Below the pieces are notes generated by a model. It did no database searches. It saw only the letters and a program-made list of their open reading frames with translations, and was not told the DNA's origin. Positions 5,943-16,222 of a stretch of DNA of 39,592 bases are shown piece by piece. Where the stretch lies: NCBI GenBank assembly GCA_031292015.1, contig JARLHY010000069.1:1-39592 (forward strand), read 5' to 3'. The stretch's first letter is position 1; each line of letters opens with the position of its first letter. The position numbers and the translations under genes are program-made. The stretch comes from Negativicutes bacterium (GTDB taxonomy: Bacteria > Bacillota_C > Negativicutes > Sporomusales_B > JARLHX01).

Positions 5943-6305
5943 TTATACTATTTTTCCAACTGCCAGACCTTCGACAATTCGTCCGTTTATAACATGCTCA
6001 CTGATAATTCTGCCTACCGTCGCCGGTGTTACTTTGCCATAGGTAATACGGGGTTCACCGGGCCGTACGACGTCCACCAGCACTTCCATCTCACACATGC
6101 CAATACATCCGGTTTGGCGTACCGACACGTCCTGCAATTTGCGCCTGACAATCTCGTCAAAAATAGCAGCCATTACATCCCGTGCGCCGGCAGCGATACC
6201 GCAAGTACCCATACCGACAATAATCTGAATACCGGTGGTATCCCTTATTTTGATCTGTTCCTGGAACTTTTCCCGCATGGTCTTTAGGTCTTCCATTGTC
6301 TTCAC
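5943..6305 (-). CDS. HndB-like (2Fe-2S) ferredoxin-domain protein
   Basis: A 120-residue protein with a thioredoxin-like ferredoxin fold. GMGTCGIAAGARDV near residue 35 and QTGCIGMCEMEVLVDV near residue 80 match the HndB subunit of NADP-reducing hydrogenases and related NuoE-type 2Fe-2S domains. Three cysteines are visible at these motifs, one in the first and two (CxxxC) in the second. GTG 6305 is preferred because GAGGAGGTG sits 6 nt upstream; the longer start ATG 6326 would put that ribosome site inside the gene. In hydrogenases HndB passes electrons between the flavin subunit and the catalytic core, but no HndA, HndC or HndD gene is adjacent, so this copy may be a solitary electron carrier. 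Confidence 0.75.
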   Translation of the reverse strand: MKTMEDLKTMREKFQEQIKIRDTTGIQIIVGMGTCGIAAGARDVMAAIFDEIVRRKLQDVSVRQTGCIGMCEMEVLVDVVRPGEPRITYGKVTPATVGRIISEHVINGRIVEGLAVGKIV

Positions 6306-6413
6306 GTTCCGCACCTCCTCAAACATTGCTTATCGCCTGATCGATATTCGTCCAGTTGATAACTTGCTGTATATTATGTAATTTACTATGAAGAGGAAAC
6401 ACGTCAATAAGCA

Positions 6414-6540: not shown

Positions 6541-6559
6541 GAAAAAGAGCCCGCAGGCT
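6541..6559 (-). terminator. Intrinsic terminator of the 52-aa gene
   Basis: On the minus strand GAGCC-TGCG-GGCTC (6546-6559) runs into TTTTTC. It lies 28 bp downstream of the stop of the 52-residue ORF, supporting that ORF as a transcribed unit. Confidence 0.75.
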
Positions 6560-6586
6560 CATTATCTTTCTTTTCCGACCGAATAC

Positions 6587-6745
6587 TCAGTTCTTGTCAT
6601 TACGATATCGTTCCTGTTGTTGGCGTTTCTTTGCCAGTTTCGCATGGTCTACCGGTAAGAGCTTTTCGCCAAACCTGTCCGAAAGAGCCTTCTCGATTTC
6701 CTCTGGTGTCAATCTGCAAATGCTTAGCTGTTTTAAGTTGTTCAT
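6587..6745 (-). CDS. Small basic protein, 52 aa, unknown function
   Basis: ATG 6745 is preceded by GAAGGGA at a good distance and the frame ends at TGA 6587-6589, 28 bp before an intrinsic terminator. The protein starts MNNLKQLSICRLTPEEIEKA, continues with a short amphipathic region and ends in a charged tail rich in Lys, Arg and Gln (KLAKKRQQQERYRNDKN). No membrane segment or known motif is visible. Ribosome site, terminator and isolated position make it a credible small gene. It may be part of the same run of minus-strand short genes as those at 7044-7720. Confidence 0.55.
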   Translation of the reverse strand: MNNLKQLSICRLTPEEIEKALSDRFGEKLLPVDHAKLAKKRQQQERYRNDKN

Positions 6746-6842
6746 GAATTAGTCCCTTCAAATAAAATATTAAATCGATAAATATTGCGCTTTATTTTAT
6801 TCGACTCTGCATTTTATATTCCTTCGTCCTTTGGTTTTTATT

Positions 6843-7024
6843 ATTGGGCCGACGCTAAAAAAATGTCCTCGCTCACAATCCTGCTCTCGCCGGCAGCCAA
6901 GCTTTCAAGGAATTCTTAACTCCTGGATACCAGTTGGAAGCTCCTGAGCCGTCCATGACGGCAGAAATCCCCGGGTAACCGGGGATCTTGTTGCAGTAGG
7001 ATGTGAATCTGCTCATGGCCCAAT
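6843..7024 (+). ncRNA. Candidate structured RNA, ~182 nt, multi-helix, no known class recognised
   Basis: The 410-bp gap between small genes folds as a branched RNA. P1 pairs ATTGGGCC (6843-6850) with GGCCCAAT (7017-7024). P2 pairs 6873-6885 with 6995-7006, 12 bp with one bulged A. P2b pairs 6893-6897 with 6990-6994. P3 pairs 6900-6908 with 6934-6942 and stacks on CTGG/CCAG (6923-6933). P4 is GCCGTC/GACGGC (6948-6962). P5 is an 8-bp stem, 6967-6974 with 6979-6986, closed by the GNRA tetraloop GTAA. P2, P2b and P3 each contain one G-T (G-U) pair that would be an A-C mismatch on the minus strand, and GTAA is GNRA only on +, so the + strand is favoured. No + gene follows until 8090, so it would be free-standing. 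Upstream is AT-rich with TATATT at 6815-6820; no clear terminator follows. A minus-strand leader of the 52-aa gene is the alternative. Confidence 0.5.
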
Positions 7025-7043
7025 GATTTTACGTGGCCTTAAC

Positions 7044-7124
7044 CTAAATCATAGAATACATATGTAGAAACAATCCTATAGACACTGTGGCCATAATGCC
7101 AAGACCGACAATGATGTATTGCAT
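7044..7124 (-). CDS. 26-aa hydrophobic microprotein
   Basis: ATG 7124 is preceded by a strong GAGGTGA at about 5 nt. The 26 codons read MQYIIVGLGIMATVSIGLFL and then HMYSMI to TAG 7044-7046, one continuous transmembrane-type helix with almost no charge. Such single-span microproteins often accompany larger membrane complexes or act alone; no partner gene is adjacent. It sits 31 bp downstream of the 54-aa gene on the same strand, so the two may be cotranscribed. Too short for most gene finders. The support is the ribosome site and the uniformly hydrophobic composition. Confidence 0.5.
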   Translation of the reverse strand: MQYIIVGLGIMATVSIGLFLHMYSMI

Positions 7125-7155
7125 ACGTTCACCTCAACTGAATATAATCGGCAGA

Positions 7156-7320
7156 CTAATATAACGGAACAATTTCATCGCGGGAACAGGTGTGTACACG
7201 AACACCCAATTCTTCCGTGGATTCAACTTTGTAGCGGCCATCCATCGTTACCCAGATAACCTGACCCCGTTGACCGGTCGACTTAATGAGAATAAAGTCT
7301 CCTTCTATTACATGTGACAT
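7156..7320 (-). CDS. 54-aa protein, SH3-like beta-rich, unknown function
   Basis: ATG 7320 (MSHVIEGDFILIKSTGQRGQ) is preceded by AAAAGGAG at about 9 nt. An upstream ATG in the same frame at 7392 has no ribosome site, and a TATAAA lies between the two, so the short form is preferred. The sequence alternates short strands and turns (GDFILIKSTGQRGQVIWVTMDGRY in parts, then EIVPLY), like a small KOW or SH3-type barrel. No family is recognised. It is followed 31 bp later by the 26-aa microprotein. It could bind nucleic acid or protein, but this is only a fold guess. Confidence 0.55.
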   Translation of the reverse strand: MSHVIEGDFILIKSTGQRGQVIWVTMDGRYKVESTEELGVRVHTCSRDEIVPLY

Positions 7321-7512
7321 TTCACGTTGCTCCTTTTGCGTTGGCTTTATAATCCAATATTTTATTCCATCTTCATTGTAAGCCATATTCAATCATAAGT
7401 AAAATTCATTTATTAGATATCAATTATTACTAAAACAGATAGTTGTGACTATAAGCTGCCTGCAGGTTTTTTTCAGTCAGCTGCTGGTGTTGCGGTCACC
7501 TCCCCTAGGGCA

Positions 7513-7536
7513 TGAAAAAAGAGCCCGGAAGGCTCT
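7513..7536 (-). terminator. Terminator overlapping the stop codon of the 61-aa gene
   Basis: AGAGCC (7520-7525) pairs with GGCTCT (7531-7536), and the minus strand then has seven T. The TAG stop of the 61-aa gene (7535-7537) lies inside the stem, so a ribosome at the stop codon could disturb the hairpin. Confidence 0.8.
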
Positions 7537-7720
7537 ATTTCAACTGTTCGACAATATCATACCTGCCTAATTCTTTTAATTTGGTTTTCGCATCTTCCAG
7601 GGTTTTCCCTAGTGGTGTTCTTTTCATATCACTTACGGTTATTAAAATGTATTCACCGTTAAAGTCACTGATTTGCTCACTCATATCTTTGCTGAACCAA
7701 ATATTACCAGCACTCGCCAT
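7535..7720 (-). CDS. 61-aa protein, unknown function
   Basis: ATG 7720 follows GGTAGGAT by a few bases. The protein contains a central hydrophobic strand (GEYILITVSDMKRTPLGKT) and ends in an amphipathic helix (LEDAKTKLKELGRYDIVEQL). No transmembrane span, cysteine or known motif is visible. It has its own terminator, which begins within the stop codon. It belongs with the other very small minus-strand genes at 6587-7320, from which it is separated by about 210 bp that hold no obvious gene. Coding support is good (ribosome site, terminator) but function is unknown. Confidence 0.6.
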   Translation of the reverse strand: MASAGNIWFSKDMSEQISDFNGEYILITVSDMKRTPLGKTLEDAKTKLKELGRYDIVEQLK

Positions 7721-7983: not shown

Positions 7984-8089
7984 CGAAAAACCGTGCTACT
8001 ATGAATATGGACGAAGGTTCGAGCTGATCCGTTCCAAGGATACCTTTCGCCTGGTCCGAAAAACATGAAGCGGTGAAGGAGTGAGTATT

Positions 8090-8323
8090 ATGAGTGACGA
8101 AAAAGAGCTTGAAACGACGGAAGAAATCCCGGTGCTATTTTCAGACGATATCGAAATCCTCGAAGACCGCTTGACAGATGTTATTGTAGCCATGGGTTTG
8201 CCTGAAGAGCAGACCAGCGCCGTTCTTAGACTGATCAGCGATATGCTGGAAGATCATCATGCAGATATTCTTGACACTTTTGAGGGGACCCTTGGCGATG
8301 AAGACGAGGAAGCGGCCCAATAA
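8090..8323 (+). CDS. Acidic 77-aa protein, unknown function
   Basis: ATG 8090 is preceded by AAGGAG (8076-8081) at 8 nt; an in-frame GTG at 8081 is part of that ribosome site. The protein is very acidic, begins MSDEKELETTEEIPV and ends GDEDEEAAQ, with a central helical stretch (ILEDRLTDVIVAMGLPEEQ, then VLRLISDMLEDHHADIL). No cysteines or known motif. It is a single-gene unit with a promoter-like region upstream and a terminator at 8368-8396. Small acidic helical proteins of this kind can be adaptor or stress proteins; nothing in the sequence decides. Confidence 0.6.
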   Translation: MSDEKELETTEEIPVLFSDDIEILEDRLTDVIVAMGLPEEQTSAVLRLISDMLEDHHADILDTFEGTLGDEDEEAAQ

Positions 8324-8367
8324 TCTTTGCAGCCATCCAATCCGCAAAAAGAATGAATACAGATAAG

Positions 8368-11295: not shown

Positions 11296-11307
11296 TTCGG
11301 TATAGCT

Positions 11308-11359
11308 GTTGCAACATAAGAAAAGCACTTACCGCGGTAAGTGCTTTTTATGTTGCAAC
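11308..11359. terminator. Long bidirectional terminator
   Basis: GTTGCAACAT (11308-11317) pairs with ATGTTGCAAC (11350-11359) around a core in which AAAAGCACTTACC pairs with GGTAAGTGCTTTT. Runs of A and T flank the core on either side, so it can stop transcription from the aldo/keto reductase (+) and from the convergent repeat protein (-). Confidence 0.85.
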
Positions 11360-11369
11360 AGCCTTGATT

Positions 11370-13859: not shown

Positions 13860-16094
13860 TCAACAGGAAGAAAACTTGACTTCCCCGTCAAGGACGTAGA
13901 AGGAGACGAAGCGAAGCGGTTCGATAAGGTTCTTTGTCATCGAACCGATGTTGATTCTTGAGCCGGGATGGATAAAATTGCTGACCCGGATTCGGCCTGG
14001 CTTAAGGGTGCTCAGGATTTCTTCGATATCGGTTGAACGTTGCTGCATTTCTTCTATCCGGTCCGGCAGGGTTTTGTATTCCGCTTCGTTCTTTTTGTAG
14101 CGTTCCAGCTTGTCGGCGGAAAGCTGGTCGACACCTTTGTTGCGCAGGAAGGTCAGGGAGAGGGTTAATTCATCATATAGGGTCCGGGCTTTTTTAATTT
14201 CCTGGCGGAGGCGGAGAAGTTCATCCTTGAGCACGGCGTTGACCGAAACCTCAAGCTCGGTTACGACACCGGTCTCGTTGCCGATGGTCTTGGCGCGAAT
14301 CAGTTCGCCGGCCGATATGCGTCCGCCGCGGATGAGTCCGCGCCGTCCCTCGGCAATGACCCGCATGCCGGCGAAAACCGAGCTGGTCAGAATGACGTCG
14401 CTGACAACAATGTCCTGATCGGCATAGACGGTGGCGCTTTCGATAAAGGTGGCTACAAGGCGGTCCCGTGCCTTTATCACGCTGCGGTTCATACCCTGAA
14501 TGCCTTTGCGGACGATAATGTTGGTGGCTTCGACCATGCCGCCGCTGATGGTGCCGTGTACTTCAACATTGCCACCGGCTTTTACGACAAAGTCGGGCTG
14601 CACCGAACCCCGGACAATGACACTGCCCCTAAAATCGATGTTGCCGGTGGAATGGTCGACATCGCCGTCAATGATAATAATGGGTATGACATTGATCCGT
14701 TTATCAAGGAAGATGTTCAGGTGCCCGTTGATAGCGGCATAAAGCCGCCATTCGTCGACATTGACGATGTTTTTGCCCACAGGCATTCTTACATCTTTAC
14801 CCGGTTTGGCCGGAAGCGGCAGACCGAAAACGTCCGTTCCCGGGATGCCTTCAGTTGCCGGAATCTTTTCTATCAGCAGCTGCCCTTCCTCGACACAGAG
14901 AAACTCGTTGATTTCTTTGAAATCGACCCGGCCGTCTTCCAGTTCCACCGGACGCCCCTGACTGTCGGGATCGATGAAGTATTTCAGATAGGCGTCATCG
15001 CCGGGACAGGACTGGGCACCGCGGGCGCAGACAACATTTTTGGCCGATCGCGTCCGGGTAAGTCTTTCAAGCGCCTCTTCCACTACGCCGAAGACGACGC
15101 CGGCTGCTTCCAGTTCTGCCAAAAGCTGTTCCACTGTGGCCATGGGGGAGTCTTCAGAAATCGTAAGATCAATCCTGGCTTCCAAGTGGTCAAGGCCTAC
15201 CTTGACGCGGATCAATCGCCCTTTTTCGCCTCCAGGAACCGAGGTGACGATAAGTACAGGTACTCCGGCGGCCTCCAGGATCACTTTGGAAATGAAATCG
15301 TTATCGAAGTTGGTAAAGTTCTGACTGATAAGGTCCTGAACAATAGCCGTTTTGGCTACCGCCGAACCGCCGCCTGTCGGCGGCCACACGCACAGATGAA
15401 CGCCGGTATCGACTGCCGTGATCTGATAGCGGCCGTCCAGCCGCGGCAAGGCGTTGGCTACCAGTACAGGCACACCGCCGGCTTCGCTGATTACTCTGGA
15501 GAGAAAATCACTGTCAAAATCGCAATTGTGTTTGTTCAGGTCATGAATAATGGCGGATTTCGACACAGGCACGCCGGCACCTGTCGGGGCCCACACGCTG
15601 AGATAAACACCGGCGTCGGTTGCCGTGATCTGATATCTGCCATCAACCGTCGGCAGGGCACTGACGATAAGTACCTGTTTGCCGATGGCTTCGCTGATGA
15701 TTCTGGCAAGAAAATCACTGTCAAAATTGCTGCAATTCCGGCTGGTCAGATCTTGCATCACAGCCGCTTTCGATACCGGAGCCCCGCCGTTCGCCGGGGC
15801 CCATACACTGAGATAAACGCCGGCGTCGATTGCCGTGATCTGATATTTGCCATCGACCGCCGGCAGTGCGTTGACAATGAGTATCGGTTCACCGATGGCC
15901 TCGTGAACGATCCGGGAAAGAAAGGCGCGATCATAGTCGGTGAGGTTTTGCTCGGCCAGTGCCCGGACTATGTTGGTGATTGAGACCGGCGAGCCGCCGT
16001 TGGACGCCGGCCATACGCTGAGGCAGACGCCACGGTCGGTTGAGGTTATTTGATAGTGGCCGTCTCGCTTTTCAAAAAAAACAGTTTCATCCAT
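13860..16094 (-). CDS. FapA/DUF342-family protein with four N-terminal ~70-aa repeats
   Basis: 744 residues from ATG 16094. Residues 11-80, 81-150, 151-219 and 220-289 are four tandem repeats of the form DGxYQIT..D.GVYLSVW.P..GG..VSK..I..DL...N...FD.DFLSR.I.EA.G.PVLIV. They resemble the small N-terminal domain that normally occurs once in FapA-like proteins. The rest is a standard FapA core: IDGDVDHSTGNIDFRGSV and KAGGNVEVHGTISGG begin a right-handed beta-helix, followed by a coiled coil (about residues 630-715, LRQEIKKARTLYDEL) and a short beta C-terminus. Family members affect flagellar or polar assembly and septum-site or wall processes; the exact role is unsettled. It stands alone with its own terminator. 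GGGTGGTG upstream is a modest ribosome site. Confidence 0.8.
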   Translation of the reverse strand: MDETVFFEKRDGHYQITSTDRGVCLSVWPASNGGSPVSITNIVRALAEQNLTDYDRAFLSRIVHEAIGEPILIVNALPAVDGKYQITAIDAGVYLSVWAPANGGAPVSKAAVMQDLTSRNCSNFDSDFLARIISEAIGKQVLIVSALPTVDGRYQITATDAGVYLSVWAPTGAGVPVSKSAIIHDLNKHNCDFDSDFLSRVISEAGGVPVLVANALPRLDGRYQITAVDTGVHLCVWPPTGGGSAVAKTAIVQDLISQNFTNFDNDFISKVILEAAGVPVLIVTSVPGGEKGRLIRVKVGLDHLEARIDLTISEDSPMATVEQLLAELEAAGVVFGVVEEALERLTRTRSAKNVVCARGAQSCPGDDAYLKYFIDPDSQGRPVELEDGRVDFKEINEFLCVEEGQLLIEKIPATEGIPGTDVFGLPLPAKPGKDVRMPVGKNIVNVDEWRLYAAINGHLNIFLDKRINVIPIIIIDGDVDHSTGNIDFRGSVIVRGSVQPDFVVKAGGNVEVHGTISGGMVEATNIIVRKGIQGMNRSVIKARDRLVATFIESATVYADQDIVVSDVILTSSVFAGMRVIAEGRRGLIRGGRISAGELIRAKTIGNETGVVTELEVSVNAVLKDELLRLRQEIKKARTLYDELTLSLTFLRNKGVDQLSADKLERYKKNEAEYKTLPDRIEEMQQRSTDIEEILSTLKPGRIRVSNFIHPGSRINIGSMTKNLIEPLRFVSFYVLDGEVKFSSC

Positions 16095-16222
16095 GAAAGC
16101 ACCACCCATTCGTTGGTTAGTGTTGTTATGCAATTTTTACTGATCCTTGCGCTGCTTTGACGGCAAAACCGACAAGCGCAAAGTGTCGGGAAATTGGGGT
16201 GCTGCATTTATATTTATTTCTA

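Follow-up and report, generated by a model that had tools for sequence, protein, structure and literature searches.

The window (the whole stretch of DNA that was analysed, 39,592 nt), derived from a source chromosome of Negativicutes (Sporomusales-like) appearance, contains a discrete G+C-rich island of about 185 nt (6840-7027), which is closed by a terminal helix and folds more stably than its dinucleotide shuffles. The likeliest single reading, which we propose with low confidence, is an orphan RNA, structured, about 185 nt long and restricted to its lineage, coming more probably from the plus strand than from the minus strand; the strand itself is not settled, with a slight lean towards plus. 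The G+C content falls from 0.527 inside the element to 0.268 on its left, across an abrupt edge, and to 0.421 in the 19 nt on its right. A free-standing plus-strand RNA would be consistent with a discrete island of this kind and with a fold of this significance, but nothing independent shows one.

Helices, fold stability and strand of the element

Folding and pair probabilities located six helices on the plus strand. The closing helix, P1, pairs 6840-6850 with 7017-7027 over 11 bp, including one U-G pair, and its pair probability rises from 0.64 at the outermost pair to 1.0. The preliminary description had given this helix as 8 bp long; the 8-bp version is present and continues outward for three more pairs, which bring in the extra U-G on the plus strand. 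The remaining helices of that description (P2, P2b, P3, P4 and P5) were all recovered in place. P2 (6873-6885 with 6995-7006) contains one bulge and one G-U pair, with probabilities of 0.77-0.81 for four of the five checked pairs and 0.40 for the fifth. P2b (6893-6897 with 6990-6994) is weakly supported, as the two checked pairs reached 0.45-0.48. The P3 hairpin (6900-6942) showed probabilities of 0.71-0.97 for the checked pairs and a z-score of -1.77 on its own. P4 (6948-6962), a perfect 6-bp inverted repeat with a 3-nt loop, and P5 (6967-6986), a perfect 8-bp inverted repeat, are adjacent hairpins shared by the most stable folds of the plus and the minus strand, with probabilities for the checked pairs of 0.97-0.99 and 0.71-1.0, respectively. 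The P5 loop is GUAA on the plus strand and UUAC on the minus strand; the GNRA loop is confined to plus, as had been noticed before. In the folded molecule, P1 would close the RNA and P2/P2b would constitute an inner stem, with P3, P4 and P5 predicted to branch off the junction.

The stability expected of a structured RNA, i.e., a fold below that of dinucleotide shuffles, was found for the element. The folding energy of 6843-7024 was -70.3 kcal/mol on the plus strand (z -4.22) and also -70.3 kcal/mol on the minus strand (z -3.51), and in neither case was any of 200 shuffles as stable. A repeat run with 300 shuffles gave z -4.29 on plus (none as stable) and z -3.07 on minus (one as stable). When 329 stretches of 182 nt were sampled across the window (plus strand, 25 shuffles per stretch), the stretch starting at 6841 ranked second, and four stretches, the element among them, had z-scores of -4 or lower. 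The element is less special when its energy is judged against G+C content by simple regression: 21 of 986 sampled windows lay at or below it on the plus strand and 3 of 986 on the minus strand. Much of the stability excess resides in P4 and P5 (z -5.35 for the two alone), hairpins that can form on both strands. Seven variants were tried in the helix-removal analysis. Without P4 and P5, the plus fold kept a z-score of -2.94 (2 of 300 shuffles as stable) and the minus fold -1.25 (38/300), whereas the additional removal of P1 left -1.66 (17/300) on plus and +0.56 on minus. Perfect 8-bp inverted repeats with this sort of spacing are not rare in the window, where 146 overlapping 8-mer pairs span 100-260 nt.

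The G-U pairs of the helices had previously been presented as strand-specific evidence for the plus strand. This argument did not hold, as the best folds of both strands contain five G-U pairs (5 of 60 pairs on plus, 5 of 58 on minus) at the same energy, and mirroring costs each strand five pairs. It runs in a circle: any helix read off the plus fold carries plus-strand G-U pairs by construction. As matters stand, the element mainly illustrates this pitfall, namely that G-U pairs within a strand's own best fold are no evidence for that strand. The energy difference between the strands was compared with that of 400 shuffles, which is a fairer test. For the whole element, 79 of the 400 shuffles were at least as biased, and 18 of 99 control windows had a plus bias equal to or exceeding that of the element. 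The corresponding counts were 14/400 without P1, 23/400 without P4 and P5, and 7/400 without P1, P4 and P5, these reduced variants having been picked post hoc. The resulting lean to the plus strand is modest.

Known families, coding potential and surrounding genes

The preliminary description had recognised no known RNA class in the element, and the covariance-model comparison agreed with it: none of the 4227 families of Rfam 15, including 6S RNA, matched at the gathering score anywhere in the window. At E<=10, three matches were recorded within 6700-7200, all far under their cut-offs and none to 6S RNA. A known Rfam RNA was thus ruled out, and tRNA or tmRNA identity was also rejected. 6S RNA is of similar length to the element and has a long closing stem; the branched element differs from it in shape. 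The arm sequences had suggested an integron attC-like site, and this candidate was dismissed, as the orientation and the conserved letters do not fit such a site.

A leader of a plus-strand gene was rejected on the grounds of distance, the next supported plus-strand gene lying about 1 kb away, at 8081. The earlier statement that no such gene follows for about 1 kb, which speaks against an obvious leader, was therefore correct. That gene (8081-8323) encodes an 80-aa acidic protein without a Pfam match, of which 8 of the 28 order genomes carry a relative. A protein family match of the 47-codon minus-strand frame had been named at the outset as counting against the RNA. Comparison of this frame with the protein catalogue, Pfam and PHROGs yielded nothing related, and a protein product was rejected. 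Its codon score (z 1.71) was near those of the small genes nearby (1.91-3.05), and composition therefore does not exclude coding by this frame.

The abstract openings and passages of the structured-RNA literature that were covered held no description of the element. In the parts of three reports covered here, orphan structured RNA candidates of G+C-rich intergenic regions (PMC8723152, PMC8632094, PMC6429828) resemble it in being structured, locally G+C-rich, intergenic and associated with no protein; the published motifs differ in resting on several representatives, while the element is one sequence with no relative found. The ldh2 motif, according to the same passages, has 34 unique examples in Negativicutes (PMC8632094, PMC6429828).

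The preliminary description was right about the gap in plus-strand genes but overlooked the microprotein genes that flank the element on the minus strand. In the order of the minus strand, these surroundings comprise a 61-aa frame (7535-7720), a gene for a 54-aa SH3-like small protein (7156-7320), a gene for a 26-aa hydrophobic microprotein (7044-7124), the element, a gene for a 52-aa microprotein (6587-6745) and an intrinsic-terminator-like hairpin (6547-6560). The 26-aa gene is preceded by a good AGGTG ribosome-binding site, and its stop codon lies 19 nt from position 7024, i.e., beside the element, so that a plus-strand transcript of the element would run convergent with it. At E<=10, its product was matched in 6 of the 28 order genomes, and two of these matches were convincing (81% identity in genome G013, locus L139, and 60% in genome G030, locus L140). 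The 54-aa protein had an identical catalogue entry (P0121; nine contigs, presumably of one species with the window), catalogue relatives at 78% and 75% (P0123/P0124), an MSSS SH3 match under the Pfam cut-off, and relatives in none of the 28 order genomes at E<=0.1. The 52-aa microprotein had no Pfam match; its family has members in 12 of the 28 genomes of the Sporomusales order (E<=0.1), with one to three scattered copies each. The hairpin that follows its gene carries a TTTTTCTTTT tail on the minus strand and was also scored on the plus strand, with a poorer tail (consensus scan). Farther along, the ferredoxin gene (5943-6326, minus strand) had its best match among the genome representatives at 78% (L001); the named relatives among the best 120 of 3748 include Negativicutes, Acetonema, Thermosinus and Sporomusa.

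Search for relatives

Neither DNA searches nor covariance models built from a single sequence revealed a convincing relative of the element. In the family genomes, one of six gave matches at E<=0.1, both of them short, and none of the 28 order genomes gave any at E<=0.01. In the class genomes, 8 of 380 contained nine matches at E<=0.01, compared to about four expected by chance, with at most two candidates scored per genome. The best of these matches (E 4.8e-5, 34 nt, in G042) corresponds to about 0.02 over 380 genomes and is nominally unlikely. All nine lie within open frames of 198-1009 aa, and the plus-strand model applied to these loci yielded one weak match (E 0.39), which did not coincide with the DNA match.

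The plus-strand model, run with strict filters and at most six candidates scored per genome among the matches listed, found nothing in the 380 class genomes at E<=0.1. At E<=10, a single one of the 28 order genomes gave a match (E 7.6). In 46 of the 139 sequence sources, the model produced three weak matches besides the element itself, and in nine further loci it produced one. The model of the minus-strand structure, run on the order genomes, had matches in 2 of 28 at E<=10, with a best per-genome E of 0.16 (L148); the latter match shows several broken pairs and sits between two genes of other kinds. Three weak matches to this model were obtained in 22 loci. Phages gave one 26-base match, located in the flank of the element, and plasmids gave none; no relative was detected in viral contigs by exact-pattern and protein-based scans. 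No homologue that would allow covariation to be assessed was found by these searches.

The synteny of the 80-aa gene was compared in 20-kb loci (L101-L108), which do not share the surroundings of the element. Neither model found it next to the genes for the 26-aa microprotein's homologues (81% and 60%), and at the former locus (L139) there was no counterpart within about 3 kb. For the 52-aa family, the upstream stretches of 20 loci, two of which have the same upstream sequence, shared no more than 10-base matches with the element. Judged from these sequences, neither the 26-aa nor the 52-aa gene has the element as a fixed partner over the distances checked. The comparison genomes are distant, as illustrated by the 441-aa gene of the window, which passes E 1e-60 in 3 of the 28 order genomes with at most 49% identity; the failure to find relatives of the element is, consequently, weak evidence of absence.

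Possible functions and origins of the element

For the orphan structured RNA, the analysis establishes the sequence, its helices, a stability beyond that of shuffles, and the convergent microprotein gene with its two relatives, while transcription of the element, the strand used and all steps of regulation are inferred. The RNA would most likely be a stable small RNA, acting in trans or as an antisense regulator. The antisense role is proposed because a plus-strand transcript would head towards the 3' end of the 26-aa gene, 19 nt away, and would oppose the mRNA of that gene when transcription runs on. Type I toxin-antitoxin pairs of the TxpA/RatA type have such an arrangement, a gene for a tiny hydrophobic peptide with an RNA facing its 3' end. 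The likeness lies in the 26-aa hydrophobic peptide gene faced by a possible structured plus-strand RNA, both the toxicity and the RNA being hypothetical. The difference is that no counterpart of the element stands beside the 81% homologue and that no plus-strand promoter or terminator was found; the antisense RNA kept beside the toxin gene in such systems was not seen at L139 or L140 with the models of the element, which leaves room for an unrelated antisense RNA there. A promoter and a terminator of its own, as an independent plus-strand small RNA gene would have, were not identified by simple consensus scans, which recorded no plus-strand promoter-like site in 6700-6843 (other promoter types not covered) and no plus-strand terminator-like site in 7024-7500.

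The plus-strand RNA is favoured by the stability and rank of its fold, by the G+C island with its abrupt left edge, by the fold staying under the shuffles without P4 and P5 more clearly than that of the minus strand, by the strand bias of the variant lacking P1, P4 and P5, by the competing minus-strand frame being devoid of a protein match, and by the relatives of the neighbouring 26-aa gene. The points against it include the missing convincing relative, the lack of a flanking plus-strand promoter-like or terminator-like site in the scan, the equal energies of the strands, the whole-element strand bias that many shuffles reach, the absence of a counterpart at L139, the weak P2b and the z-score of only -1.66 that remains without P1, P4 and P5. 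A bolder version, in which the element founds a class of its own among small RNAs, branched and self-closing, found only in an uncultured Sporomusales lineage and paired as an antisense RNA with a 26-aa membrane microprotein that is conserved, appears highly improbable. If real, the element would add one more orphan structured RNA. The collections used contain no close sequenced relatives of its lineage, and the microprotein gene nearby, which has relatives elsewhere, would offer a testable partner.

It is somewhat unlikely that the element belongs to a minus-strand message as a structured untranslated region, either trailing the SH3-like and 26-aa genes or leading into the 52-aa gene, with hairpins that would protect, process or end the message. 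Small genes on the minus strand lie on either side, that of 26 aa ending next to the element, and the 52-aa gene is followed by the minus-strand terminator-like site (6560-6547). Promoter-like sites were also scored on this strand at 7102-7073 and 6869-6840 (consensus scan), and the minus fold has a z-score of -3.51 and is one that only 3 of 986 windows equal by G+C regression. Nevertheless, that fold sheds most of its excess once P4 and P5 are removed, the upstream stretches of the 52-aa family share only 10-base matches with the element, and the minus-structure model produced nothing convincing in either the 28 genomes or the 22 loci. Chance is an unlikely source of the element as well: an intergenic stretch under no constraint, with a pair of strong hairpins and an inverted repeat of an ordinary kind, would have been picked from about 40 kb. 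The rank of the element as second of 329 stretches and the position of P1 right at the left edge of the G+C island argue against this. In favour of chance, three other sampled stretches reach z -4 or lower, the G+C regression puts 21 of 986 windows equally low on plus, conservation was not found, and P4 and P5 alone carry z -5.35, with z -1.66 (plus) and +0.56 (minus) left when these and P1 are taken away.

Terminal inverted repeats around a non-coding body are characteristic of MITE-like non-autonomous elements, and such repeats were found here, 8 bp in perfect or 11 bp in imperfect form, at the abrupt left change in G+C and enclosing a G+C-rich, non-coding, hairpin-rich body. We nonetheless regard a small non-autonomous mobile element of this kind, or its remnant, as improbable. 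The element differs from MITE-like elements in that no target-site duplication is clear by eye and no second copy is present within the window. A 12-base copy of one arm at 8313-8324 is at chance level (E 0.75), and the ATTGGGCC/GGCCCAAT combination, sought within 400 nt, came up just this once among the 1,541,334 bases searched (a set without the whole source genome). The plasmid and phage searches likewise offered no copy, the 26-base phage match being restricted to the flank.

Two further features of the window were recorded. A long near-perfect inverted repeat (11305-11362) follows an aldo-keto reductase gene, encloses a hairpin and then TTTTT, and is the top fold of the 329 sampled stretches (z -5.35); it is apparently an extended terminator. 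The minus-strand gene at 13860-16133 encodes a 757-aa protein with FapA domains.
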